Shown in pieces: positions 17,685-58,752 of a stretch of DNA of 64,000 nt (positions are counted from its first letter, which is position 1; each line of letters starts with the position of its first letter). The DNA comes from Chloroflexaceae bacterium. Lineage in GTDB: Bacteria > Chloroflexota > Chloroflexia > Chloroflexales > Chloroflexaceae. The notes beneath the pieces were generated by a model. That model ran no database searches and had not been told where the DNA came from. It saw only the letters and a program-made list of their open reading frames with translations. The position numbers and the translations under genes are program-made. The stretch is taken from contig JANWYD010000007.1 of NCBI GenBank assembly GCA_025057155.1, positions 124,001-188,000 of the forward strand. The letters run 5' to 3'.

Positions 17685-18350
17685 TCACCCGCTCACCTGC
17701 AGCCCGGTGAGGGCCACGAACGCGGCGATCAGCAGGCAGAACAGGGACAGATAGAAGAGCGCGGGGATCAGGACGACCACCAGGGCGCGGCGTGGCGGCA
17801 GGTTCAGCCCCGACTGCACGCCGAGGTAGGTCAGGTAGAGGCCGTAGAAGGTTAGGAAGATCGCCAGCGGCGCCGTCAGGCACGAGAACCAGCCGAAGGA
17901 GAAGAGATTCACCACTGCCCCGATGATCGCGACCGGCGCCCAGAACAGCGCGATATCGTATGCCAGTTCGCCGAACTTGCCGTCACCGCCCAGCAGCCGC
18001 CCCAGCAGGTAGACGATGACAAGGTAGAGGAGGAAGCCGATCATCGTGTGCAGCAGGTTGCCGAGCACGGGGATGCCGGGCTCCCAGGGCCTGAGAAGCG
18101 TTTCATAGGGCAGATCGCGGCCGAGCCGCGCTTCCAGGCCGGCGAAGTAGGCCGCCACGGTGGCCGCCTGCCGCTCCAGGAACGGCCGCTGGATCAGGAA
18201 GGTCAGCCAGCCGAGGATGGCGGTGATGGTCGCGCCGATGAACACGTAGAGCAGCGCCCAGCCCAGCCTGCGCTGCTCGTGGGCCTCGAAGGTGGCTACC
18301 GAGGGCCGCAGCAACACCGCCCGGCTGCCGCGGATCATCGTCATCAGCAT
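17685..18350 (-). CDS. Yip1-domain membrane protein
   Basis: A 221-residue integral membrane protein with about five helices and an N-terminal cytosolic segment MIRGSRAVLLRPSVATFEAHEQ, the usual Yip1-family entry before the first helix. Visible helices are LGWALLYVFIGATITAILGW, LLHTMIGFLLYLVIVYLLGR, IALFWAPVAIIGAVVNLFSF, a helix with AIFLTFYGLYLTYLGV, and ALVVVLIPALFYLSLFCLLIAA. Its role in bacteria is unknown. The frame extends to 18533 only through R1 copy C; ATG 18350 is the credible start. Two further Yip-like proteins lie at 20685-21365 and 52775-53443. Confidence 0.75.
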   Translation of the reverse strand: MLMTMIRGSRAVLLRPSVATFEAHEQRRLGWALLYVFIGATITAILGWLTFLIQRPFLERQAATVAAYFAGLEARLGRDLPYETLLRPWEPGIPVLGNLLHTMIGFLLYLVIVYLLGRLLGGDGKFGELAYDIALFWAPVAIIGAVVNLFSFGWFSCLTAPLAIFLTFYGLYLTYLGVQSGLNLPPRRALVVVLIPALFYLSLFCLLIAAFVALTGLQVSG

Positions 18351-18430
18351 GCGCGTTGCTCCGTTACGGACGCCCCTGCCGGCAGGAGAGTCGTTGCAGC
18401 GCAATTCTCCGCGTTGCGGCAAGGAAACCA

Positions 18431-18538
18431 GATGTTCTCCCCAACCTTCCCCTGCCGGGGGAGGGCGCCCGGCGCCTCCCTCCAACGGGGGGAGGTTGGG
18501 AGGGGGGTGGAAATGCAGGGAAACGTCGTTCACAGACT
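18431..18538. repeat. R1 element, copy C (inverted, one end lost)
   Basis: The right end GTCGTTCACAGACT (to 18538) and the inner GGAAATGCA motif match the other copies on the complementary strand. The left end near 18431 is degenerate. Its terminal TAG (complement of 18537-18539) is the stop codon of the PIN gene. Confidence 0.7.
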
Positions 18539-19525: not shown

Positions 19526-19583
19526 TCATTCCGAGCGCAGCGAGGAATCTCGGCTGGGACGCTTCGCTTCGCTCAGGGTGACA
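19524..19583. repeat. R6 repeat (TGTCATTCCGAGCGCAGCGAGG type), copy 1
   Basis: An inverted-repeat element running from TGTCATTCCGAGCG to CGCTCAGGGTGACA. It is a common intergenic repeat type in several bacterial phyla. It forms the last codons and stop of the hydrolase gene at 19526-20665. Copy 2 is at 21502-21572. Confidence 0.8.
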
Positions 19584-20665
19584 TTCGAGATCAAGCCACG
19601 ACTGTGCGGAGCGACACTGGACGCGTGTTTATCGTGAAATGCTGTGATGAGCTCGACAACCGTGGCCGTCGTCTTCTCCATGTGGCTGCGGCCGTCCGGC
19701 AGAAAGGCCTCCGTGTCCAGGTAGCCCTTCGGGCCGGTGTGGGTCATCGGTCCCAGGTTGATCTGCCGCAGCCGGCCGGAGGCGAGGGCCCGGTTCCAGC
19801 GCGAGTTGCGGGCGAGCGGCCATCGCCCCCAGAAGACCACGTCGGCGATGGCCTGCACCGAGTCCCGTTCGCCTTCGAGATGCACCAGTTCGTCGGCGGC
19901 GTCAATGCCGCGAGTGCTGGCCATGACCCCGCCCAGCGAGATGACCTGGAGCGGCGCGGCGATTGCCGGCTTGAGGTAGTAGGCCGCGCCAAAGACCACC
20001 TGGCCGCCGCCGCTGTAGCCCATCAGCGTCACCGGCACGCCGGAACCGGGCTGGTAACCCTCGTCCAGCAGCGCCCGCAGGATGGTGCTGGCGGTGCCGT
20101 AGTTGAAGACCGGGGCATAGCGCCGGTCGGCCGAGACGGCCACCTGGAGCATGTTGCGCATGTTGATCAGGTTGCCCAGGGCGGAGGCCCGCCCGCCGGT
20201 TGACTTCACGGCCAGGATCGAGCGCCAGAACTCCCCGTAGCGCTCGTCTTCGGTAAGGCCGGTGTTGTCGGGCGAGTAGGGGAAGATGTTGTCGATGATC
20301 GCGAGCCAGGGCATGGCCGCCTTCAGGTTGCGCAGGAACGCCTGCTCCTCGCTGGCCAGGGCGTCGGCCGAGGTGTTGCCGATCCCCGAGAGGAAGACCA
20401 GGTAGTGACTCGGCGGAATCTCCGCGCCGGCGCCCTCAGGCGGCTTTACCGGGGCCCGTAGCGGTTCGGGAGCAGGGCCGGCGCCGAGGGCCGGCGCGTC
20501 CTGCTCACCGGACCAGCCCGCCCACCACCCCAGGAAATTGAGCGGCGCGGTCGCGCTGACGACCAGAACGGCGAAGATCAGCATTCCTATCAGAAAGAGG
20601 ATCTCGACGCTAAAGGTGAGGACAAAGGCGACGAGACCTTCGTACAGCAGGAAGAAGATCTCCAT
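19526..20665 (-). CDS. Membrane-anchored alpha/beta-hydrolase, block 1
   Basis: A 379-residue protein with an N-terminal membrane hairpin (helices about 5-22 and 25-47), the motif LNFLGWWAGW, a Pro/Ala linker, and an alpha/beta-hydrolase-like domain with the nucleophile elbow GYSGGG (Ser218). Conserved blocks are FLSGIGN, VAVSADRRYAPVFNYG and VISLGGVMAS. The substrate is unknown. It is paralogous to the protein at 53440-54519 and, like it, follows a Yip-like membrane protein gene (19 bp gap). The last about 20 residues are read from an R6 repeat and are probably not ancestral. Confidence 0.7.
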   Translation of the reverse strand: MEIFFLLYEGLVAFVLTFSVEILFLIGMLIFAVLVVSATAPLNFLGWWAGWSGEQDAPALGAGPAPEPLRAPVKPPEGAGAEIPPSHYLVFLSGIGNTSADALASEEQAFLRNLKAAMPWLAIIDNIFPYSPDNTGLTEDERYGEFWRSILAVKSTGGRASALGNLINMRNMLQVAVSADRRYAPVFNYGTASTILRALLDEGYQPGSGVPVTLMGYSGGGQVVFGAAYYLKPAIAAPLQVISLGGVMASTRGIDAADELVHLEGERDSVQAIADVVFWGRWPLARNSRWNRALASGRLRQINLGPMTHTGPKGYLDTEAFLPDGRSHMEKTTATVVELITAFHDKHASSVAPHSRGLISNVTLSEAKRPSRDSSLRSE

Positions 20666-20684
20666 TGGGGCAACCTCGTACCGT

Positions 20685-21365
20685 TTATTTCCGGCGCTGC
20701 AATCCCAGCGGCGCGGAGGGCACAATGTCACGCAACTGGTAGTTAACCTCCTGCCCAGTGAGCGCCCGCAGCATGCGCCGGCTGATCAGCGTGACCGGGC
20801 CGGCGGTGAACCAGCGGAAGAGCTGGAAGAGCAACCAGCCGCCAATGGCGCAAAGGGCCGCGCCGCCAAACGTCAGCGGGTAGACGATGGCGAGCGTAAG
20901 CGCGACCAGATAGAGACTGAGACCCTGCAGGACCATCAGCAGCCCCTGGCCGAGGTAGGGGGTGAAGCCCAGGAAGGCGAACAGCAGGGGCAGGAACCCG
21001 ACCGCGACGGCGCGCAGGGAGACGCGAAAGACGTCGTCGAGGCCGTAGAGGGCATTGACGACGAACGCGGTCGTGTAGGCCCAGACAAAGCCTCCTACGA
21101 CATACGTCAGGGCGGTGAGCACCAGGGCGATGGCGAAGGGCCGCCGCCCGACCCGGTTCAGCAGCAGTACCACCGCGCGGGTGCCGAAACTCTCCGCCAG
21201 GCCGGCCAGGAAGAAGATCAGGACGATCGTGGGCAGCCAGAGCGGGCCCGCCAGCAGCGGCGCCCTGGCCGCGTCCGCCAGGCCGGCCTGGAGATTGCCC
21301 AGTGACTGGACCACGGTCCACAGGGCGATCAGCGACTGGATAAGCGGGCGCGTGTCGAAGAGCAT
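20685..21365 (-). CDS. Yip-like integral membrane protein, block 1
   Basis: A 226-residue membrane protein with about five helices. The segment from DDVFRVSLRAVAVGFLPLLF to the end aligns by eye with the protein at 52775-53443, including P(Y)xGxxxxxxL, GWLLF and the cytosolic tail RRMLRALTG..LRDI. The topology resembles Yip1-domain proteins. Its partner, the anchored hydrolase, starts 19 bp downstream, so the two are probably co-transcribed. ATG 21365 is preferred; the frame upstream to 21434 has no conserved character. Confidence 0.65.
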   Translation of the reverse strand: MLFDTRPLIQSLIALWTVVQSLGNLQAGLADAARAPLLAGPLWLPTIVLIFFLAGLAESFGTRAVVLLLNRVGRRPFAIALVLTALTYVVGGFVWAYTTAFVVNALYGLDDVFRVSLRAVAVGFLPLLFAFLGFTPYLGQGLLMVLQGLSLYLVALTLAIVYPLTFGGAALCAIGGWLLFQLFRWFTAGPVTLISRRMLRALTGQEVNYQLRDIVPSAPLGLQRRK

Positions 21366-21713: not shown

Positions 21714-23918
21714 TCAAGCCCCCGTTGCGCGGGCAGTCGCCACGGCCGCGCGCCTCTCAAAGACACCCGTATCGTAGATGAAGTCGAGGATCACCTGCTC
21801 GACTACCTCGGGGTTGTTCACCACAATGATATGATTCGCTCCCGGCACGGTGATCAGCCGCGAGCCGGGCACGTGGCGCTGGATGATTTTTGAATCCTCG
21901 ACAGTGAATACGGTGTCTTCCTCGCCGACGACCACCCACACCGGCTGGGTCATCGAGCGCAGGGAGGCCACGCCGTCGTACTGGGCGATGCCGCGGTAGA
22001 TCATCAGCCAGGCGCGCAGGGTGGTGTGCGAGGCGTCGGCCATCAGCCGGTTGAGCTGGATGTCGCCCGTGCCCTTGAAGGCGTCCATGGTGTTGGGCAG
22101 CAGGGCGCGCCGGTCGGCGGGGAGCAGTTCGAGCAGCCGCCCGAGCATGCCGATCACCCAGGGCGCGCGGGTCGCCACCCAGCCCGGCGCGGCGGGGGCG
22201 CGGGCGGCCGTGTCGAGCAGCAGGTAGCCCTTGCTGAGGTGCGGGTGGGCCTGGTGAAACATCGTCGTGACCATGCCGCCGAAGCAGTGGCCGACCATAA
22301 TGAAGTCGCGGATCGCCAGGGCCTCCAGCACATCGTAGACGTCCTCGGCGAAGCGCTCGAGCCGATAATCCTCGGCGTCGCGCGGGCGATCCGAGTAGCC
22401 GTGGCCGCGCAGGTCGAGGGCCAGGGTAGAGAAGCCCGCGCCGTGGAGGGCCGGATACTGCGCGCGCCAGGCGTCGTGGTCGCCGCCGGCGCCGTGCAGC
22501 AACACGATGGTACGCGGGCCGTGGCGATGCCAGTCCGCGAAGATGCGCACACCGGAGCGGGTGGGGATGAGTTGCCGCGTCTCGGGTCCCTCGGCCCCGG
22601 CGAGGCTCAGGGCGGCGCGACGCTCCTCGTCGATCGTTGCATCGACCAGTTGCGCAGCGGGCAAGGGCAGGTGGCGGATGGTCGCGCCCTCCGCGCGCAG
22701 GGCCTGCACAGTCGCCGGGCCGGCGTGGTGGTAGATCGAGGCGATCAGCAGCGCCTTGCCCGGCGGCACGGTCTCGGCGATGCGGCGCAGGTCGGCGTCC
22801 TTATAGGCCAGGTTGACGAGGTGCGCGACGCCGGCGCCGAGCAGCCCGCCTCCCAGTCCGAAGACGATGGCTCCCAGGGCGCCGAGCACCAGCCCGAAGG
22901 CGAGGATGAAGCCGCCCGCGTTGGCTGGCACGGTCGCCGTGCCCTGGTTGACCATCAGGGCCAGGCCGGCCAGCGCCGCGCCGGCGGCACCGCCGACCAG
23001 CAGCCCGCCCGCCGCGCCGGCGAGGCCGCCAACCAGGGCCCCGCGCCCCGCGGTCACATTCCCGGCCTGCTGGATGCCCGCGCGCCCCTGTTCATCGCGG
23101 GTGACGATGGCGTGATTACCGGCGGAGAGCCCGCCGAGGGTGCGGCGGAGCCGGCGCAGGCCGCGGGCTGCCCGGCGCGCGTGGGCGGCATCGGCGCACT
23201 CGGCTACCACCAGGTCGCGCTGGCGCGGGTCAACCGGCGGCGTTTCCAGGGTAATGGGAACGTAGGCGCCCGCGCGCCCCACACCGGCGTCGTAGGCCCG
23301 CGCCGCGAAGCCGGCGGCGGTCGGATCATCGCCAGGCGGCGCGCCGACCTCGCCGGCCTCCCGCGGGCGCATCAGCGCGCCGCCGCTCAGCGCCAGCAGG
23401 TCAGCGATAGGCGGCCGTTGCGCTGCGCTCACGCGGGTAACCAGCGCTGCCTGGCCGACCGCCAGTTCCTCACCGATGGCGTAGAGTTTGCGGCTGCCGA
23501 TGCCGAAGTTGATCAGCGCGGCGGCCAGCCCGCCCAGCAGCGCGCCGCCGAGGGCCGAGAGCAGCGCCGTCAGCCCGCTGGCGAAGGCCACCACCAGCGC
23601 CAGGGCCATCACCCAGTTGTCCACGCTCGGCGCCGTGGCGAGGCCCTGGCGCGCGTTGCCGGCTACCAGGATCCCGACGAAGGGCGCCAGCAGCACGGCG
23701 CCGAGCACCGCGCCGACCACCAGGCCGAAGCGCATGCCGTCCCCGGCCCCCAGATTGCCGTCCTGCTCAAACTGGATGCTGTCGCGCGCCGGCCGGGTCA
23801 CGACGGCGATCGAGGGCAGGCGGCCCAGCCGCAGCTCTTTCTGAAGCGCGCGCAGCTCGCGCCGGGCCTCGTGGGCGGCGCCAGGTCGCTCGAAGAAGCA
23901 GATGAGCTCGTCTTGCAT
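21714..23918 (-). CDS. Fusion: two DUF1269-like membrane domains plus alpha/beta-hydrolase
   Basis: A 734-residue protein of unusual build. Residues about 1-165 and 230-395 are two DUF1269-like halves, each with a short ferredoxin-like stretch ending in a QxGN motif (EQDGNLG, QQAGNVT) and then Gly/Ala-rich membrane helices. Residues about 450-720 form an alpha/beta-hydrolase with HGAGGDHDAW, LDLRGHGYSD, the nucleophile elbow GHCFGG, acid Asp668 and His696. The nucleophile position is Cys545 instead of Ser, as in dienelactone hydrolases. The hydrolase probably sits at the membrane surface. The gene is 36 bp downstream of the S9 peptidase gene on the same strand. Confidence 0.75.
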   Translation of the reverse strand: MQDELICFFERPGAAHEARRELRALQKELRLGRLPSIAVVTRPARDSIQFEQDGNLGAGDGMRFGLVVGAVLGAVLLAPFVGILVAGNARQGLATAPSVDNWVMALALVVAFASGLTALLSALGGALLGGLAAALINFGIGSRKLYAIGEELAVGQAALVTRVSAAQRPPIADLLALSGGALMRPREAGEVGAPPGDDPTAAGFAARAYDAGVGRAGAYVPITLETPPVDPRQRDLVVAECADAAHARRAARGLRRLRRTLGGLSAGNHAIVTRDEQGRAGIQQAGNVTAGRGALVGGLAGAAGGLLVGGAAGAALAGLALMVNQGTATVPANAGGFILAFGLVLGALGAIVFGLGGGLLGAGVAHLVNLAYKDADLRRIAETVPPGKALLIASIYHHAGPATVQALRAEGATIRHLPLPAAQLVDATIDEERRAALSLAGAEGPETRQLIPTRSGVRIFADWHRHGPRTIVLLHGAGGDHDAWRAQYPALHGAGFSTLALDLRGHGYSDRPRDAEDYRLERFAEDVYDVLEALAIRDFIMVGHCFGGMVTTMFHQAHPHLSKGYLLLDTAARAPAAPGWVATRAPWVIGMLGRLLELLPADRRALLPNTMDAFKGTGDIQLNRLMADASHTTLRAWLMIYRGIAQYDGVASLRSMTQPVWVVVGEEDTVFTVEDSKIIQRHVPGSRLITVPGANHIIVVNNPEVVEQVILDFIYDTGVFERRAAVATARATGA

Positions 23919-52774: not shown

Positions 52775-53443
52775 ATGTTCGAGTTTATCAGAGCCATGTG
52801 GGTGGGTACGATAGAAGCCATGCGCCTCAATCCGCGCGCCTTCGAGATCGTGGAGGCGAATCCCCGCACGGGCTGGGTGGTGCTCGCCGTGGCGATCGTG
52901 GGCGGCGCGTCGCTGTTGCTGGGCCAGAGCGTGATCCTCTTCGTCAACCGCGTTCGCCCGGGGCGCTTCGTGCTGAGTTTGCTGCTCAACGGCGTCGTCT
53001 TTGCGCTAAGCCTGATGGTCTGGGGAGCGGCAATCTGGCTGACGAGCAAGGCGCTCTTTCCCAATGAGATCCCGCTCTCGAAGGCCCTGCGCCTGACGGC
53101 CATGGGCGCGGCGCCGTATGTCTTCGGCTTCCTGGTGCTTTTGCCCTACGCGGGCAATTTCATCGGCAAGGTGCTGGCAGTCTGGAGCTTTCTGGTGGTG
53201 CTCGCGGCGATGACATCGCTGGCCAACGGAAACTTTGGCCCGGCGCTGGTTTGCACGGTGATCGGCTGGCTGCTCGTTATGGTGATGAGCGCGACGATCG
53301 GGCGGCCGGTGATCTACGCGCGGAATGCGATCTACCGGCGCATTACCGGCGCCGATCTCGACGCGAGCGTGCAGGATATTCTCACCCAGTTCGCCGCTCC
53401 GCCTGAAGAGGCCTCCAGCAAGAGCCGGAAAGGTGCGCCATGA
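52775..53443 (+). CDS. Yip-like integral membrane protein, block 2
   Basis: A 222-residue membrane protein with about five helices. The N-terminal cytosolic part MFEFIRAMWVGTIEAMRLNPRAFEIVEANP resembles the entry of Yip1-domain proteins. The segment SKALRLTAMGAAPYVFGFLV onwards and the tail RNAIYRRITGADLDASVQDIL parallel the block 1 protein at 20685-21365. Its TGA overlaps the ATG of the hydrolase gene (ATGA), a sign of translational coupling. Role unknown. Confidence 0.7.
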   Translation: MFEFIRAMWVGTIEAMRLNPRAFEIVEANPRTGWVVLAVAIVGGASLLLGQSVILFVNRVRPGRFVLSLLLNGVVFALSLMVWGAAIWLTSKALFPNEIPLSKALRLTAMGAAPYVFGFLVLLPYAGNFIGKVLAVWSFLVVLAAMTSLANGNFGPALVCTVIGWLLVMVMSATIGRPVIYARNAIYRRITGADLDASVQDILTQFAAPPEEASSKSRKGAP

Positions 53444-54519
53444 TACTCTCGACGCTAAGCCTGTTGCTCACTGGTCTGATCCTGCTGATTATCCTTGGCG
53501 CGCTGCTGGCCCCCTTCGAGAGCCTGGGGTGGTGGGCGGGCTGGTTCGGCGAGAAACCGGCGTTGCCCGGTCAGAAGATGACCGAGGCGCACAGGGCGAT
53601 ACCGGAACATCCGGCGGGATCGGCGGTGGTGTACCTGTCGGGCATCGGCGCGATTGACGCCGACTCGATCCCCCAGGAGGAGATAGACTGGGGAATGATG
53701 GCGATCAAGCGCCTGCCGGGGGTGCTGGTGGTGCCGGATGTGTATCCCTACTCGGTCACCAACGCCGGGTTGACCGCTGATCGCGGCTTCTCGCGGATCT
53801 ATCGCTGGATCGAGCAGCGGCGCCTGGAGAACCCCTACGACCTGTTGCAGTTTGTGATCAACCTGCGCAACCTGTTCCAGGTGGCCGTATCGGCCGACCG
53901 GCGCTACGGGCCGATCTACAATCTGGGGGTGGCGAACGAGATTGTCAAGGCCCTGGCGAACCGCGGCTACCGGGTGGGCAGCGGCAAGCCGGTGACGCTG
54001 GTCGGCTTCAGCGGGGGGGGGCAGATTTCCCTGGGGGCGGCGACCTACCTTGCCCCGGTGCTGAAGGCGCCTATCCGCATTATTTCGATCGGCGGGGTTA
54101 TGGCCGATGATCCGGGGTTGAACCACATCACCAGGCTCTACCATCTGTACGGTGAGGCCGACCCGGTGCAGAAGCTGGGCCACTGGCTCTACGCCGGGCG
54201 CTGGAAGTGGTTCCCGCAGAGCGACTGGAACCGCGCTATGGCTGCGGGCAAGATTGAGATGATCAGCATGGGGCCCATGGCTCACAACGGCGCGAAGAAC
54301 TACTTTGGCTGGACGGCCTTCACCCCCGAAGGAAAGTCCTATGCCATCGCCACGATTGACAAGATCGGCGATCTGCTGGCGAAAGACGGGTTGATCGACC
54401 CGGCGGCGTTGCAGGCGGCACGCGCGGCCAATGATCCTGAGGCCAGGGCCTATGAAGCTGCGCGTGTGGCCGAGGCCGCCCGCGCGAAGGAAAAGCAACG
54501 CCAGGCCAAGACAGCATAG
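53440..54519 (+). CDS. Membrane-anchored alpha/beta-hydrolase, block 2
   Basis: A 359-residue protein with an N-terminal membrane helix (about 3-26), the motif SLGWWAGWFG, and a hydrolase-like domain with nucleophile elbow GFSGGG (Ser191). Shared blocks with the block 1 protein are YLSGIGA, VAVSADRRYGPIYNLG and IISIGGVMAD, and a GPMAH motif that may carry the catalytic His. The tail is a charged helix rich in Ala, Arg and Lys. It overlaps the Yip-like gene by 4 bp and lies 13 bp before the 596-residue protein gene, so the three form one operon. Confidence 0.7.
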   Translation: MILSTLSLLLTGLILLIILGALLAPFESLGWWAGWFGEKPALPGQKMTEAHRAIPEHPAGSAVVYLSGIGAIDADSIPQEEIDWGMMAIKRLPGVLVVPDVYPYSVTNAGLTADRGFSRIYRWIEQRRLENPYDLLQFVINLRNLFQVAVSADRRYGPIYNLGVANEIVKALANRGYRVGSGKPVTLVGFSGGGQISLGAATYLAPVLKAPIRIISIGGVMADDPGLNHITRLYHLYGEADPVQKLGHWLYAGRWKWFPQSDWNRAMAAGKIEMISMGPMAHNGAKNYFGWTAFTPEGKSYAIATIDKIGDLLAKDGLIDPAALQAARAANDPEARAYEAARVAEAARAKEKQRQAKTA

Positions 54520-54532
54520 TGAGGATTGAGCC

Positions 54533-56323
54533 ATGCGGCGCAAACGAGAGCGGGTTCCCGTCGAGAGCAACTACGCGCGCTACCGCGCGGCGCAGTTCAA
54601 TCGGATCGAAGAGTATCCCGTCGCCCAGAGCCTGGACCCGGCCCGCTACCGCCCGGTGGGGGCGTGGATGGGGCGACTGGTCCTCCCCGCCATTCAGGAG
54701 CGGGCGCTGGTCCTGGGCGCCTGGATGGAGGTGCGTCATGCCCCCGAGTCCCACCGCGGGCTGGTAGGGACGCAGGTGCGCCTGCGCTGGATGTCCACCC
54801 CCGATCTCAACGCCCGGCTCTGGGGCGCGTCGCGCACCGTCGTGCTCGACGAGAACGCCTGGGAGTCGGTGGAGAAAGGGACAGTGGTGGGCGAGCGTCT
54901 GCACGGTCTGACCCACGTCAACCCGCTCGAGTCGCTGGCCGGCGCCCATCCCTACGATGACATCCTGGTGCGCCTCGATGGACCCGTCGCGGTGGATCTG
55001 GCTCCGGGCGATGGAGGCCCGCCAATCGTGACGATCAGCCGGATGCCGGTGGAGATCAGCGCGCCGTTCTACGCGCTGGCGCGGTTCCTCGGTCCTGCCG
55101 AGGCGCCCGACACCTACCGCGTGGTCCATTATCAGGCTGCGGCTGGCGACTTTAGCGGCCCTGAGGAAGTAGTGTACATGCCCGAGGTGATCCCGGACAT
55201 GCACGATACGCGCAATTTCACCGTCGCGGGCATCGAACGCTCGCCCTGCAACGAGCAGGGCTGGTACCTCTATGGCGCGCAGGATCGCCAGGGGCGCTTC
55301 GTGGTGCGGGCCGTGGCAGCGCGACAACTCTTGCGCCTCAATCCGCTCGCCGTGGTGGTGGGAAGCGGGGAAGCGATGGACTACCTGCGCCCGCGGCAGT
55401 GGCGGCGGGCCGCGGCCAAGGGGCAGGCCACCCAGGTCCTGCTGGTCCCCGACGGGATACACCCCGAGGCGGCGCGCGCCGGCTGGGGCGAGGGCGATCA
55501 GGCCCTGGTCATTCACATCTACGGCGGCATCGGCGGCAACAAGACTGAACCGGCGGCCCGCACGCCGCTCTACTGGGGCCATGTCGCCTTCGGCGTCGCC
55601 ACGGTCGTCCATGAGCCGCTGGCCGGCGAATTGAGCTTTGATATCGTCTATCACCAGGTCTACGCCCACAATGCCGATGGCCTTGCCTCCGGGGCGATCC
55701 ACTACAGCCGCTACAGCGGCGACCGGCAGTTCGGCTGGGCAGGCGTCCGGCCCATCCAGGATCTGCTGGTCAAGATTGACGCCCTGAGCGGCGCGTTTAC
55801 GATCTTCGACACCGAAGTTGCCGCGCTGGAGCAGATCTGCAAGTACCTTGAGGTCATGGAGGCGCGCTATCGGGTGGCCGACGGGCGCGGAGCCACCTTC
55901 GTCGGCGCGCTCAACAATTGCGCCCAGGACTCGGCCCAGGCGCTCTACATCGCCGTGCGCGAGGTGGGACGCATACTCGGGTCGCGGGCCGATGTGCGCG
56001 CCGAGATGACCGATACGCCGGAGGAGGCCCGGCGCCTCGAAGCGCTACAGGAGCTGGGGGAGGAGATCCGGCGGGTGTTGCTGCCCTGGGGGTCGGCGCG
56101 CAGCGACTGGGAGTACGAGGCCGCGGTGCTCGGCGGCGGTGGCTCCGGGCTGCTCGGCGCTATTGGCGATGCTATGAAGAGCTGGCGCACCATGCTGCCC
56201 CCGGTGATGGCCCGCGCCCTGGCCGAAGTCTTCCTCGAACAGGGCGCCACAATCTACGCCCTGCGCACCTACCAGGTCGGCGGCGATGACCCGGATGTTG
56301 AGCCGATTGTGCCGAATGTGTAA
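54533..56323 (+). CDS. Unrecognised 596-residue soluble protein of the Yip-hydrolase operon
   Basis: The family was not recognised. The protein has no signal peptide or membrane helix. Notable blocks are YRPVGAWMGRLVLPAIQER (39-57), HGLTHVNPLESLAGAHPYDD, VIHIYGGIGGNK (326-337), YWGHVAFG (347-354) and ALNNCAQDSAQALY (459-472). A Cys (463) in an NNCxQDS context and a His (350) in GHVAFG ahead of it could form the pair of a permuted papain-like/NlpC-type hydrolase, but this is speculation. The gene follows the anchored hydrolase by 13 bp and is probably co-translated with it. Confidence 0.6.
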   Translation: MRRKRERVPVESNYARYRAAQFNRIEEYPVAQSLDPARYRPVGAWMGRLVLPAIQERALVLGAWMEVRHAPESHRGLVGTQVRLRWMSTPDLNARLWGASRTVVLDENAWESVEKGTVVGERLHGLTHVNPLESLAGAHPYDDILVRLDGPVAVDLAPGDGGPPIVTISRMPVEISAPFYALARFLGPAEAPDTYRVVHYQAAAGDFSGPEEVVYMPEVIPDMHDTRNFTVAGIERSPCNEQGWYLYGAQDRQGRFVVRAVAARQLLRLNPLAVVVGSGEAMDYLRPRQWRRAAAKGQATQVLLVPDGIHPEAARAGWGEGDQALVIHIYGGIGGNKTEPAARTPLYWGHVAFGVATVVHEPLAGELSFDIVYHQVYAHNADGLASGAIHYSRYSGDRQFGWAGVRPIQDLLVKIDALSGAFTIFDTEVAALEQICKYLEVMEARYRVADGRGATFVGALNNCAQDSAQALYIAVREVGRILGSRADVRAEMTDTPEEARRLEALQELGEEIRRVLLPWGSARSDWEYEAAVLGGGGSGLLGAIGDAMKSWRTMLPPVMARALAEVFLEQGATIYALRTYQVGGDDPDVEPIVPNV

Positions 56324-56457: not shown

Positions 56458-56516
56458 AAATTCGCTTGCAGCCCATTGTCGCGCGGCGAAGCCGCACTGA
56501 TGAAAGAGGAACCTGT

Positions 56517-56885
56517 ATGCAGCTTCTGCTGCGCTGGCTGTTGACGGCCGTGGCGCTGGCGATTACCGCCTGGATCGTGCCGGGCATCACCGTGGAAGGT
56601 CAGACGGGCATCTTCGCCGTGCTGGTGATGGCGGTGGTCTTCGGGTTCGTCAACGCCTTTATCCGGCCCTTGCTCAAACTGCTGTCGTGTCCCTTGATTA
56701 TTCTGACCCTGGGCCTGTTCACCCTGGTCATCAATGCCATCAGTTTCTCCCTCTCGTCGTGGATCGCCCAGAACGTGTTCGGGGCGAAATTCATCGTTGA
56801 TGGCTTCTGGCCGGCCTTCTGGGGGGCAATTGTAGTGTCGATCGTCTCGTTCCTTCTCTCGCTCTTGCTGCCAGATAAGGATTAG
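56517..56885 (+). CDS. Small four-helix membrane protein (phage-holin-4/YvlD-like), block 2
   Basis: A 122-residue protein with four membrane helices. The signature WIVPGITVEG, FVNAFIRPLLKLLSCPLIILTLGLF and VINAISFSLSSWIA matches the phage-holin-4 (YvlD) family well. It is a chromosomal membrane protein of unclear role, often linked to envelope stress. The start is ATG 56517 after AAGAGGAA. The weaker relative at 27146-27538 is in block 1. Confidence 0.85.
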   Translation: MQLLLRWLLTAVALAITAWIVPGITVEGQTGIFAVLVMAVVFGFVNAFIRPLLKLLSCPLIILTLGLFTLVINAISFSLSSWIAQNVFGAKFIVDGFWPAFWGAIVVSIVSFLLSLLLPDKD

Positions 56886-57047: not shown

Positions 57048-57761
57048 ATGAAAGCCTTGCTCCAACTCGTAGAAGCCTACACCGTTGCCTCGCTCAACGA
57101 CGCGGTGCGGGAGCTTGAGCGGCAGTTCCCGGAGGCGCTCTGGTCGGTCGGGCGCGACTCGAACCAGGTGGCCCTGACCTTCGATGACGGGCCGCACGAG
57201 CGCGATACGCCCGCGCTGCTGGCGGCGCTGGCCAGACACGGTGTGACGGCCACTTTCTCCTGGCTTGGCGAGCGGGTGGAGCGAATGCCGGAACTGGCAG
57301 CCGCCGCAGCCGCTGCCGGTCACCAGTTGATGATCCACGGCTACCGGCACCGTTCGTTCCTCGTGGAGCGTCCCGAGGCGCTGCATGCCATGCTTGACCG
57401 GACGCGGGAGTTGCTGGCGCGCTACAGCGGGCGCGATCCGGCGACGATCACCTGCGTGCGCCCGCCTTACGGGCACTTGAGCCGGACGCTTGCCCGGCGC
57501 CTGCTGAGCTGGGGCTACCAGCCGGTCATCTGCAGCATTATGCCAGTGCACTGGCTGTTGCCCGCGGAACTGAGCGTGCGCCAGGTTGTGCGCCAGACGG
57601 AGGGCGGATCGCTTATTGTCCTGCATGAGACGCTGCCCGGCCCTCCGGTGGCCGAGTTGACCGATCAGATTCTCACCCGGCTGGCCGATCGGGGCTTCAG
57701 CTATGTTACGGTCGATACCCTACGCGCAGAGCGCGCCGCGCTGGGCGGCGCGCTGGGTTAG
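57048..57761 (+). CDS. Polysaccharide deacetylase (CE4 family)
   Basis: A 237-residue NodB-fold deacetylase acting on acetylated sugars of peptidoglycan or exopolysaccharide. Motif 1 is TFDDGPH (Asp46, Asp47), motif 2 HGYRHR (His97, His101 as metal ligands), and motif 3 RPPYGHLS. A cleavable signal peptide was not evident, and the N-terminus is the helix MKALLQLVEAYTVASLND. The frame extends to 56964 through repeat DNA; ATG 57048 is used. It lies 16 bp before the stop-to-start junction of the DUF937-like gene. Confidence 0.9.
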   Translation: MKALLQLVEAYTVASLNDAVRELERQFPEALWSVGRDSNQVALTFDDGPHERDTPALLAALARHGVTATFSWLGERVERMPELAAAAAAAGHQLMIHGYRHRSFLVERPEALHAMLDRTRELLARYSGRDPATITCVRPPYGHLSRTLARRLLSWGYQPVICSIMPVHWLLPAELSVRQVVRQTEGGSLIVLHETLPGPPVAELTDQILTRLADRGFSYVTVDTLRAERAALGGALG

Positions 57762-57783
57762 CTCAGGTAAGGAGAGCATGCCA

Positions 57784-58752
57784 ATGTCCACGATGTTTGC
57801 TCCGCTTGAGGCGGTGATGACGCCAGAAATGTACGCGAAGGTTGGCGAGCGGTTTGGGGTTCCTGGCGACATGGTGCAGAAGGGCATCAACGTCGCCCTT
57901 CCGCTGCTGACCCGGGGACTGTCTATGGCCGCCGACACCCCTGAAGGTCAGGTCGCGATTGCTGAGGCGGTAAAGGAAGCTGACGCGGGAGTGCTGGGCA
58001 ACCTGACCAGTTTTCTGGGCTCGCTGAGTGGAAGCGAAGCCGGCGCAACCATGTTGACGCGACTCTTCGGCGATGAAAGCCGTGTCGTGACCGCAGGGAT
58101 CAAAGAGGCTACCGGACTTGATATCACGCCGGTCGTCGGGATGCTCGGCCCGCTCATCCTCGGCTTCCTCAACAGCACTGCGCAGAAAGAAGGCATGGAC
58201 ACCAATGCGCTGATTAAGAAGATCAAGAGCGAGGCGCGCAGCGTCGAGCGGCGCAAGAGTGACGAGGCCACCCTGGTCAACGACGTGCTCGGGAAGGTCA
58301 CCGAGGTGCGCGCGATGAAGGGGCGCTTCTCGGCCCAGGAGTGGGCGCAGGTGCGCAACGGGCCGATGGCGGCCACGACCCTGGTGATCGCTGCCTCGCC
58401 CTCCAGCGCCGGCAAGACGGCCCAGGAGATGGCCGCGGCGCTGGACTCGGTGCGCGAGTCGGTGAAGGATGCGGCTCCGACCAGCCTGCTCGCGGCCCTC
58501 TACCACCCTGGCGTGGATGATCTGACCGCCGAGGGCATTACTGACGCGCTGGGGGCGGCGAAGCAGGCGGCGGCGCTGGTGGAGAAGAACGTTCCAGAGG
58601 AGGCTAAGGCGTACAAGGAGTTGCTGGTGAAGGCCGCCTACGCCGCGGCAGAGTCGGTCAAAGAGGGCGGGTTCCTGGGGATCGGCGGCAAGAAGGTTAC
58701 GCCCGAGGAACAGGCGGCGATTGACGCCCTCGTCGCCGCCCTAGGGGTATAG
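57784..58752 (+). CDS. DUF937-like protein with C-terminal FSAQEW domain, block 2
   Basis: A 322-residue soluble protein. Residues about 1-180 are helical with the pattern GVPGDMVQKGINVALPLLTRGLS, ..NLTSFLGSLSGSEAG, reminiscent of DUF937 proteins, which form helical bundles. Residues 195-322 start GRFSAQEWAQVRNGPM and end EGGFLGIGGKKVTPEEQAAI, matching the stand-alone protein at 29374-29850. ATG 57784 is 9 nt after GGAG; ATG 57778 is an alternative. Function unknown. Confidence 0.7.
   Translation: MSTMFAPLEAVMTPEMYAKVGERFGVPGDMVQKGINVALPLLTRGLSMAADTPEGQVAIAEAVKEADAGVLGNLTSFLGSLSGSEAGATMLTRLFGDESRVVTAGIKEATGLDITPVVGMLGPLILGFLNSTAQKEGMDTNALIKKIKSEARSVERRKSDEATLVNDVLGKVTEVRAMKGRFSAQEWAQVRNGPMAATTLVIAASPSSAGKTAQEMAAALDSVRESVKDAAPTSLLAALYHPGVDDLTAEGITDALGAAKQAAALVEKNVPEEAKAYKELLVKAAYAAAESVKEGGFLGIGGKKVTPEEQAAIDALVAALGV

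Follow-up and report, generated by a model that had tools for sequence, protein, structure and literature searches.

A recurrent gene pair for a Yip1-superfamily membrane protein and a predicted membrane-anchored alpha/beta hydrolase in Chloroflexota and other bacteria

Two related gene pairs in one Chloroflexaceae contig

The DNA analysed here, referred to as the window, is a stretch of 64,000 nucleotides from a Chloroflexaceae bacterium (assembly GCA_025057155.1, contig JANWYD010000007.1, positions 124,001 to 188,000 of the forward strand). It contains two pairs of neighbouring genes, each encoding a small membrane protein, termed M, and a predicted membrane-anchored serine hydrolase, termed H (Table 1). 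A sequence-only reading of the window had described them as a gene pair that occurs twice, and the four open reading frames are indeed present with the positions, order and strands given there, as are the hydrolase motifs GWWAGW, VAVSADRRY, G(Y/F)SGGGQ and (V/I)IS(L/I)GGVMA. M precedes H on the same strand in both pairs. The start codon of H2 lies over the stop codon of M2 in a four-base overlap (ATGA), and the gap between M1 and H1 is 19 bases if ATG starts are taken. BLASTP gave an identity of 42% for H1 and H2 over 300 columns (E 6e-77) and of 27% for M1 and M2 over 168 columns (E 4e-15), so that the significant alignment expected of true copies is found for both partners; the alignment scores exceed the mean of shuffled sequences by 102 and 20 standard deviations, respectively (300 shuffles each). 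Chance likeness is ruled out by these values, and M1-H1 and M2-H2 are diverged copies of a single unit.

Both pairs are thus real, but the genome holds more than two. Beyond the window, the 5.1 Mb source genome (G000), whose nearest named H relatives belong to the Chloroflexales, has a third M-H pair (contig C14), a full-length H that lacks M (contig C2) and a short H fragment (contig C5). Searches of the source genome with single M sequences gave three M genes, each of them adjoining an H, and a search with an M profile added a fourth, weak match on contig C6, which is a canonical Yip1 protein. The fragment on contig C5 (L034, 7970-8218) is a remnant of an H gene located directly 3' of a gene for a large membrane protein.

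Table 1. Coordinates of the two gene pairs, of the predicted catalytic residues of H2 and of associated genes in the window
Feature	Position	Strand	Description
M1	20685-21365	-	Yip1-superfamily membrane protein, 226 amino acids, upstream partner in pair 1
H1	19526-20665	-	predicted membrane-anchored alpha/beta hydrolase of pair 1, 379 amino acids; triad columns conserved
M2	52775-53443	+	Yip1-superfamily membrane protein of pair 2, 222 amino acids, five hydrophobic segments
H2	53440-54519	+	predicted membrane-anchored alpha/beta hydrolase of pair 2, 359 amino acids
H2 Ser191 codon	54010-54012	+	putative nucleophile (G-F-S-G-G), invariant in 72/72 alignment rows
H2 Asp241 codon	54160-54162	+	invariant; after strand 232-237
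H2 His282 codon	54283-54285	+	invariant; after strand 272-276
X (third protein)	54533-56323	+	596 amino acids, no known family; conserved His350, Asn462-Cys463
Canonical Yip1-domain protein near pair 1	17685-18533	-	Pfam Yip1 E 1.9e-13

M and H are neighbours in distantly related bacteria

Relatives of H were collected with two peptide patterns that were derived from a profile of 22 H proteins and run against 84,980 species, each represented by one genome. The scan gave 106 related stretches, the best 80 of which were kept as named loci; as it rests on two short peptide patterns, it is not exhaustive. When these 80 loci were searched with an M profile, M was found upstream of H on the same strand in 72, within 154 bases in 71 of them and at a distance of 2.9 kb in the other (L108). 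In the remaining eight, M is located directly downstream of H (L068, L122), is divergently oriented (L081) or is missing (L050, L072, L119, L091, L110; the last two begin at a contig end). The two genes are therefore adjacent in most of the named loci, so that the adjacency in many species for which the sequence-only reading had proposed a test is indeed found. Of the 72 upstream M genes, 42 overlap H by exactly four bases and nine by one, and such overlaps are a sign of translational coupling. Gene starts were set by a script rule on which the counts of four-base overlaps depend, although window pair 2 and four plasmid loci (see below) show the ATGA sequence plainly. Linkage as mere synteny among close relatives is ruled out, because it spans phyla, because the flanking genes differ where they were scanned, because the order is reversed in L068 and L122 and because X, the third protein listed in Table 1, stands before M in L061.

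The M-H combination occurs in six phyla, i.e., Chloroflexota, Deinococcota, Actinomycetota, Gemmatimonadota, Pseudomonadota and, in the form of a fusion, Cyanobacteriota. Within the Chloroflexota, the named loci stem from Chloroflexia, Anaerolineae, Ktedonobacteria and others; those outside stem from Trueperaceae (Deinococcota), Propionibacteriaceae, Mesorhizobium, one Gemmatimonadales bin, one Chromatiales bin, which has no M, and one bin called Gracilibacteria, which may be misbinned, many of the genomes being metagenome bins. H is furthermore encoded in 13 plasmid records, six of which were fetched and examined. Plasmid loci of Sinorhizobium meliloti GR4, S. fredii NGR234, Microvirga and Nonomuraea encode a shorter M-like protein upstream of H (M profile E 1.5e-5 to 9.5e-8) with an ATGA overlap between the two genes. 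On pSymA of S. meliloti ABS7 (L166, 3500-4582), H appears decayed, with a weak partial match and a glycine in the position of the nucleophile, and the region upstream of it gave no match to the M profile.

The spread of the unit is patchy. It is rare in the Chloroflexota as a whole (15 of 400 genomes drawn from the phylum), while a single genome can have as many as four full copies of H, which is a pattern that a defence or toxin-immunity module would also produce. We regard such a role as highly improbable, since the six window proteins searched against PADLOC 2023 matched none of its families at E 0.01, no phage record carried H, and the recurrent neighbours named by Pfam include ordinary genes such as those for a FUR regulator, methylmalonyl-CoA mutase and YibE/F. 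An origin from viruses or phages was likewise discarded, as a scan of viral contigs and the search of phage records yielded no relative.

Co-occurrence was assessed in 41 related genomes, for which the tables of M and H matches were paired by eye. The M profile gave 35 strong matches (at least 177 bits) and 18 weak ones (at most 37 bits; compared with Yip1 for the source genome only), and 34 of the 35 strong matches lie on the same contig as an H, in most cases touching it and at the farthest about 3 kb away (G001:C339). H is represented by 37 full-length genes and by seven further rows that are pieces. All 16 genomes with H contain a strong M match, and all 25 others contain neither.

M and H co-diverge

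Phylogenetic trees were calculated for 70 rows, comprising 67 of the 75 named loci with M and H (all but eight near-duplicates), both pairs of the window and the third pair of the source genome. Patristic distances in the H and M trees correlate with r 0.85, the trees have 30 of 67 splits in common, compared with at most two in 200 label shuffles, and 19 of the 27 strongly supported splits of the H tree recur in the M tree. A shared species history could by itself produce such agreement in part, and its effect is removed by a design in which partners are swapped within the same genome only. This test used all 75 named pairs and the three pairs of the source genome (78 in total), with 41 loci in 16 genomes available for swapping and with genome groups taken from the record titles. 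The observed r was 0.80, whereas the swaps reached 0.33 on average and 0.70 at best, and none of 2000 swaps attained the observed value; partners were assigned correctly in 38 of the 41 loci. It follows that H tracks its own M and not merely the species, and the co-divergence of both partners that the sequence-only reading had proposed to examine by trees is indeed found.

H is a predicted alpha/beta hydrolase behind a single membrane helix

The AlphaFold2 model of H2 has a mean predicted local distance difference test (pLDDT) score of 92.3. Of 1000 solved chains compared with it in VIA-align, 960 have a Z of at least 8, led by dienelactone hydrolases, thioesterases and carboxylesterases (e.g., dienelactone hydrolase with Z 14.0, root mean square deviation (rmsd) 3.3 and 196 aligned residues, and thioesterase TesA with Z 13.8, rmsd 2.9 and 169 aligned residues); Foldseek gave 17 matches at E ≤0.001, the best at 9e-6. 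As rows with Z values within 1 of each other are tied, the class of substrate is not readable from the fold matches. An alignment of 72 H rows was compiled from 70 of the 80 named loci and the two window proteins, with near-duplicates and some truncated rows dropped; the first alignments had covered 22 of the 32 H loci and 21 of the 29 M loci then found. Ser191 follows strand 185-190 of the model, and together with Asp241 and His282 (Table 1) it makes up a putative triad in the canonical order. Arg143, Asp153, Arg155, Tyr156 and Trp255 are likewise invariant in all rows.

Conservation and model agree that H is an alpha/beta hydrolase with a predicted Ser191-Asp241-His282 triad behind one membrane helix, so that the designation as an anchored serine hydrolase, originally made from the bare sequence, gains support, and we consider it very likely that the protein has hydrolase activity. 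Neither H1 and H2 nor M1 and M2 reached the cut-off of any Pfam or NCBIfam family, and no relative of H was found in the PDB by sequence. Over the 72 rows, Pfam returned weak matches to Thioesterase (six rows, best 4e-4), Abhydrolase_6 (three rows, best 1e-3) and DHO_dh (one row, 2e-3). H resembles the alpha/beta-hydrolase superfamily, i.e., dienelactone hydrolase, TesA-type thioesterases and the carboxylesterase/acyl-protein thioesterase group, in its fold, in the G-x-S-x-G elbow and in the acid and histidine that follow the expected strands, but differs from it in its signatures W-W-A-G-W and V-x-V-S-A-D-x-R-Y, in its N-terminal membrane helix and in the gene for a membrane partner that adjoins nearly every copy.

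M is a remote member of the Yip1 superfamily

M2 is modelled by AlphaFold2 as a helical protein (mean pLDDT 90.7). Simple hydropathy indicates five hydrophobic segments in M2 and six windows in M1. In a profile-profile comparison with hhalign, the M profile matched canonical Yip1 proteins over 165 columns with E 1.6e-8 and a probability of 95%, while the controls, 12 column shuffles and a YibE/F membrane protein, gave nothing; the canonical Yip1 set of 13 rows includes duplicates from two overlapping loci and some rows that are probably out-of-frame tails. The Pfam Yip1 model was matched at E ≤0.1 by 16 of the 67 rows of the M alignment (65 of 75 named loci and the two window proteins, with near-duplicates and some truncated rows dropped), the best value being 2.5e-7. 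Of ten relatives scanned singly, one passed its gathering cut-off (L073, 31.2 versus 28.6 bits), and M1 and M2 did not match the model (PF04893) up to E 10. Because the profile match is good but the window proteins miss the Pfam model, we place M in the Yip1 superfamily and not in the Pfam family as drawn; the label Yip-like thus stands at the level of the superfamily.

M has in common with the clan Yip1, which includes the eukaryotic YIPF proteins and bacterial Yip1 proteins, the profile match and the Pfam Yip1 matches of 16 of the 67 rows; the five hydrophobic segments that hydropathy indicates for M2 would fit as well. It departs from known members in having a hydrolase as its partner and, by comparison by eye with the motif as given in part of a review (PMC6682643), from eukaryotic Yip1 in that M2 lacks D-L/F-x-G/I-P. 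A search of the PDB with the M2 model gave no Foldseek match at E 0.001, and the best VIA-align match had Z 4.3 and rmsd 4.0 with 105 aligned residues, which does not exclude a solved fold; a lone PDB sequence match of 0.19 was taken as chance.

Six positions of M are conserved in at least 96% of the rows, five of which (G50, L55, P114, P124 and G127) are located in or next to membrane segments, while G192 belongs to the C-terminal tail. P114 and P124 are buried in the membrane and invariant or nearly so, as might be expected if M were a transporter or flippase and H processed the molecule that is moved; in addition, some Pfam families of the Yip1 clan are similar to transporters according to the same review (PMC6682643). 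We nevertheless hold a transport function to be quite unlikely. Among the positions of M that are conserved to at least 75%, no charged one lies inside a membrane segment apart from R64, which is found where a segment starts; S46, N58 and Y125 are the remaining polar ones. Nor does a solved transporter fold match the M2 model, although a missing match is no proof.

A natural fusion and a third protein, X

Plasmid pA of the cyanobacterium Kovacikia minuta (L163, 3915-7772) contains a single open reading frame of 1286 codons without an internal stop, in which M, H and X follow each other in this order. The fused protein matches M2 with 30.6% identity (E 7e-25), H2 with 40% (E 7e-73) and X with 42% over 621 columns (E 2e-152). 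The search with X pointed to two places in the pA record, one of which is the fusion.

Apart from the window, X adjoins M and H in 13 named loci, two of which are incomplete (L046 at a contig end, L051 in two frames), and X belongs to the unit in the clade of pair 2. Among the 41 related genomes, X is present in 13, all of which are among the 16 with M and H. The 17 rows for X in these genomes include ten within about 310 bases of H or M, two about 2 kb from a lone H, and two pieces. Searches of Pfam, NCBIfam and the PDB gave no credible relative of X; matches of 0.2 to 0.95 and from 0.037 up, as well as scattered Pfam matches (best 0.018), were taken as chance. In an alignment of 12 rows, His350 and Asn462-Cys463 are invariant, which suggests that X may be a cysteine enzyme. 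In a lone X encoded on a plasmid of Stanieria sp. NIES-3757 (L167, 5896-8394), the N-terminal part has a membrane segment and the C-terminal part an Rce1-like CAAX protease domain, and there is no match to M or H within about 5.4 kb on either side of the gene.

The hydrolase domain probably faces the cytoplasm

Anchored esterases are often extracytoplasmic. An H that faces outward, to the periplasm or the cell surface, and acts on envelope polymers or lipoproteins would conform to this habit, and the X protein from Stanieria, which starts with a segment resembling a signal anchor, would fit as well. The distribution of charges speaks against such an arrangement. Across the 72 H rows there is practically no lysine or arginine before the membrane anchor (mean 0.01), compared with a mean of 1.6 after it; the number after the anchor is higher in 56 rows, tied in 16 and lower in none. 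M is basic at positions 55-64 (net +2.7) and 175-200 (net +2.8). Basic residues mark the cytoplasmic side of a membrane protein (positive-inside rule), and on this basis M would end inside, H would start outside and the H domain would lie inside.

In the Kovacikia fusion, the stretch from position 212, where the M alignment stops, to the H anchor (343-361) contains a single hydrophobic segment (305-323, at a cut of 1.6), and the parity fits an M that ends inside and an H that begins outside. Furthermore, X shows no hydrophobic segment where it is a separate protein (best 19-residue window 1.40 in 11 rows), yet it directly follows the H domain in the Kovacikia chain, which argues for both being located in the cytoplasm. 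From the sequence features taken together, a catalytic domain of H on the cytoplasmic side is likely, and the outward orientation seems improbable.

Proposed function of the M-H unit

M and H travel together in distant bacteria and are joined in one cyanobacterial fusion, and they are therefore very probably parts of one membrane machine. Adjacency, co-occurrence, co-divergence and the natural fusion strongly support the earlier proposal of a functional module. We have found a real and widely kept membrane hydrolase module, in which known folds enter a new partnership together with one new family. A description of such a pair was not found in the open-access literature, subscription papers being outside that search. 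We are largely confident that M and H form a physical complex, and on balance we favour the interpretation that each pair provides two subunits of one inner-membrane enzyme complex in which M holds H at the bilayer. H would act as a Ser-Asp-His ester or thioester hydrolase that is tethered by one N-terminal helix, with its N-terminus outward and its domain in the cytoplasm. M, as a Yip1-superfamily protein with probably five helices, would bind H, hold its active site at the bilayer and probably help to present a membrane-soluble acyl substrate to the Ser-Asp-His site; in one branch, the soluble X would join the complex and add a step.

A number of observations weigh against this interpretation. 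M is absent from L050, L072 and L119 although the flanks are present, and four of the 37 full-length H genes in the 41 relatives are without M (G000:C2, G007:C120, G022:C3, G016:C292), such that H may work alone in one subfamily. The one strong M match that has no H on its contig (G016:C66) is accompanied by X, the H of that genome being on another contig (G016:C292). The trees of H and M contain two strongly supported conflicts and do not have 37 of their 67 splits in common, three of the 41 partner assignments fail, and the fusion has been found once. Most pairs outside one clade lack X, and three X genes are located on contigs without a match to M or H (one of these contigs measures just 4.7 kb). 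As to topology, the charge rule is a prediction only, three arginines are found in the Kovacikia loop that leads from the extra helix to the H anchor, simple hydropathy misses the fifth M segment in that protein, and the N-terminal hydrophobic segment of the Stanieria X is preceded by KKRR, which would place that X outside.

M could also be an assembly or stability factor that serves the folding, insertion or oligomerization of H without handling a substrate. The best studied bacterial Yip1 protein that we met, YknW, modulates the assembly of the YknXYZ transporter according to two reports (PMC4887032, PMC4338810), and tight coupling with M translated first would suit such a role. The copies of H without M indicate, on the other hand, that H need not have M in order to fold. 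Five of the six positions most conserved in M are located at membrane segments, which a substrate path would predict as well, and this does not decide the matter. Overall, we rate a pure assembly function as rather unlikely, though less so than transport or an outward-facing hydrolase. In the same reports, YknWXYZ of Bacillus appears as a case in which a Yip1-type protein is dedicated to one membrane machine, which differs from M-H in being an efflux pump of the ATP-binding cassette (ABC) type that includes a membrane fusion protein; genes for an ABC pump or a membrane fusion protein were not among the recurrent M-H neighbours scanned, and a systematic search for them was not made.

Within the preferred interpretation of a membrane-held hydrolase complex, a lipid or another acyl compound of the membrane is a plausible substrate, with a probability that we put slightly short of even. 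The lipid or envelope remodelling suggested by the sequence-only reading was a guess, and the charge pattern would favour the cytoplasmic face over the outside. A slight hint at glycolipids comes from a lone H in genome G007 (L169, 8870-13636), which is located about 50 bases behind a glycosyltransferase gene of the monogalactosyldiacylglycerol synthase type (E 1.6e-24) on the same strand, with genes for an ion channel and X nearby. More speculatively, and in our view unlikely, the Yip1-fold subunit might load a substrate from the bilayer into the serine hydrolase and X might, in one branch, be a second, cysteine-type enzyme that acts on the product, all of them forming an acyl-hydrolase complex that has not been described.

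Yip1-type proteins are common among prokaryotes, with matches to the Pfam Yip1 model in 11 of 14 control genomes, and to our knowledge few prokaryotic Yip1-type proteins have a known job. One branch of the superfamily now has a single co-evolving enzymatic partner and a natural fusion, so that a role of Yip1 becomes testable by an enzyme assay, for which the culturable Sinorhizobium strains GR4 and NGR234 would be tractable hosts. Should the more speculative version with a substrate-loading subunit be correct, the ancient role of the Yip1 fold would lie in docking enzymes or complexes onto membranes and not in vesicle traffic. H and X, moreover, represent two protein families without a name in the profile libraries used.

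Genes in the surroundings of the pairs

Homologues of the canonical Yip1-domain protein near pair 1 are encoded in all eight named loci of the pair-1 clade. Next to pair 1, positions 21714-23918 (minus strand) encode a long protein with a glycine-rich, membrane-like part followed by a C-terminal alpha/beta-hydrolase domain. A neighbour that in L093 has an alpha/beta-hydrolase domain is common to the pair-1 clade loci and to three loci of the Ktedonobacteria type. Downstream of X, the plus strand of the window encodes a four-helix protein of the phage-holin-4_2 type (56466-56885) and a DUF937 protein (57703-58752).

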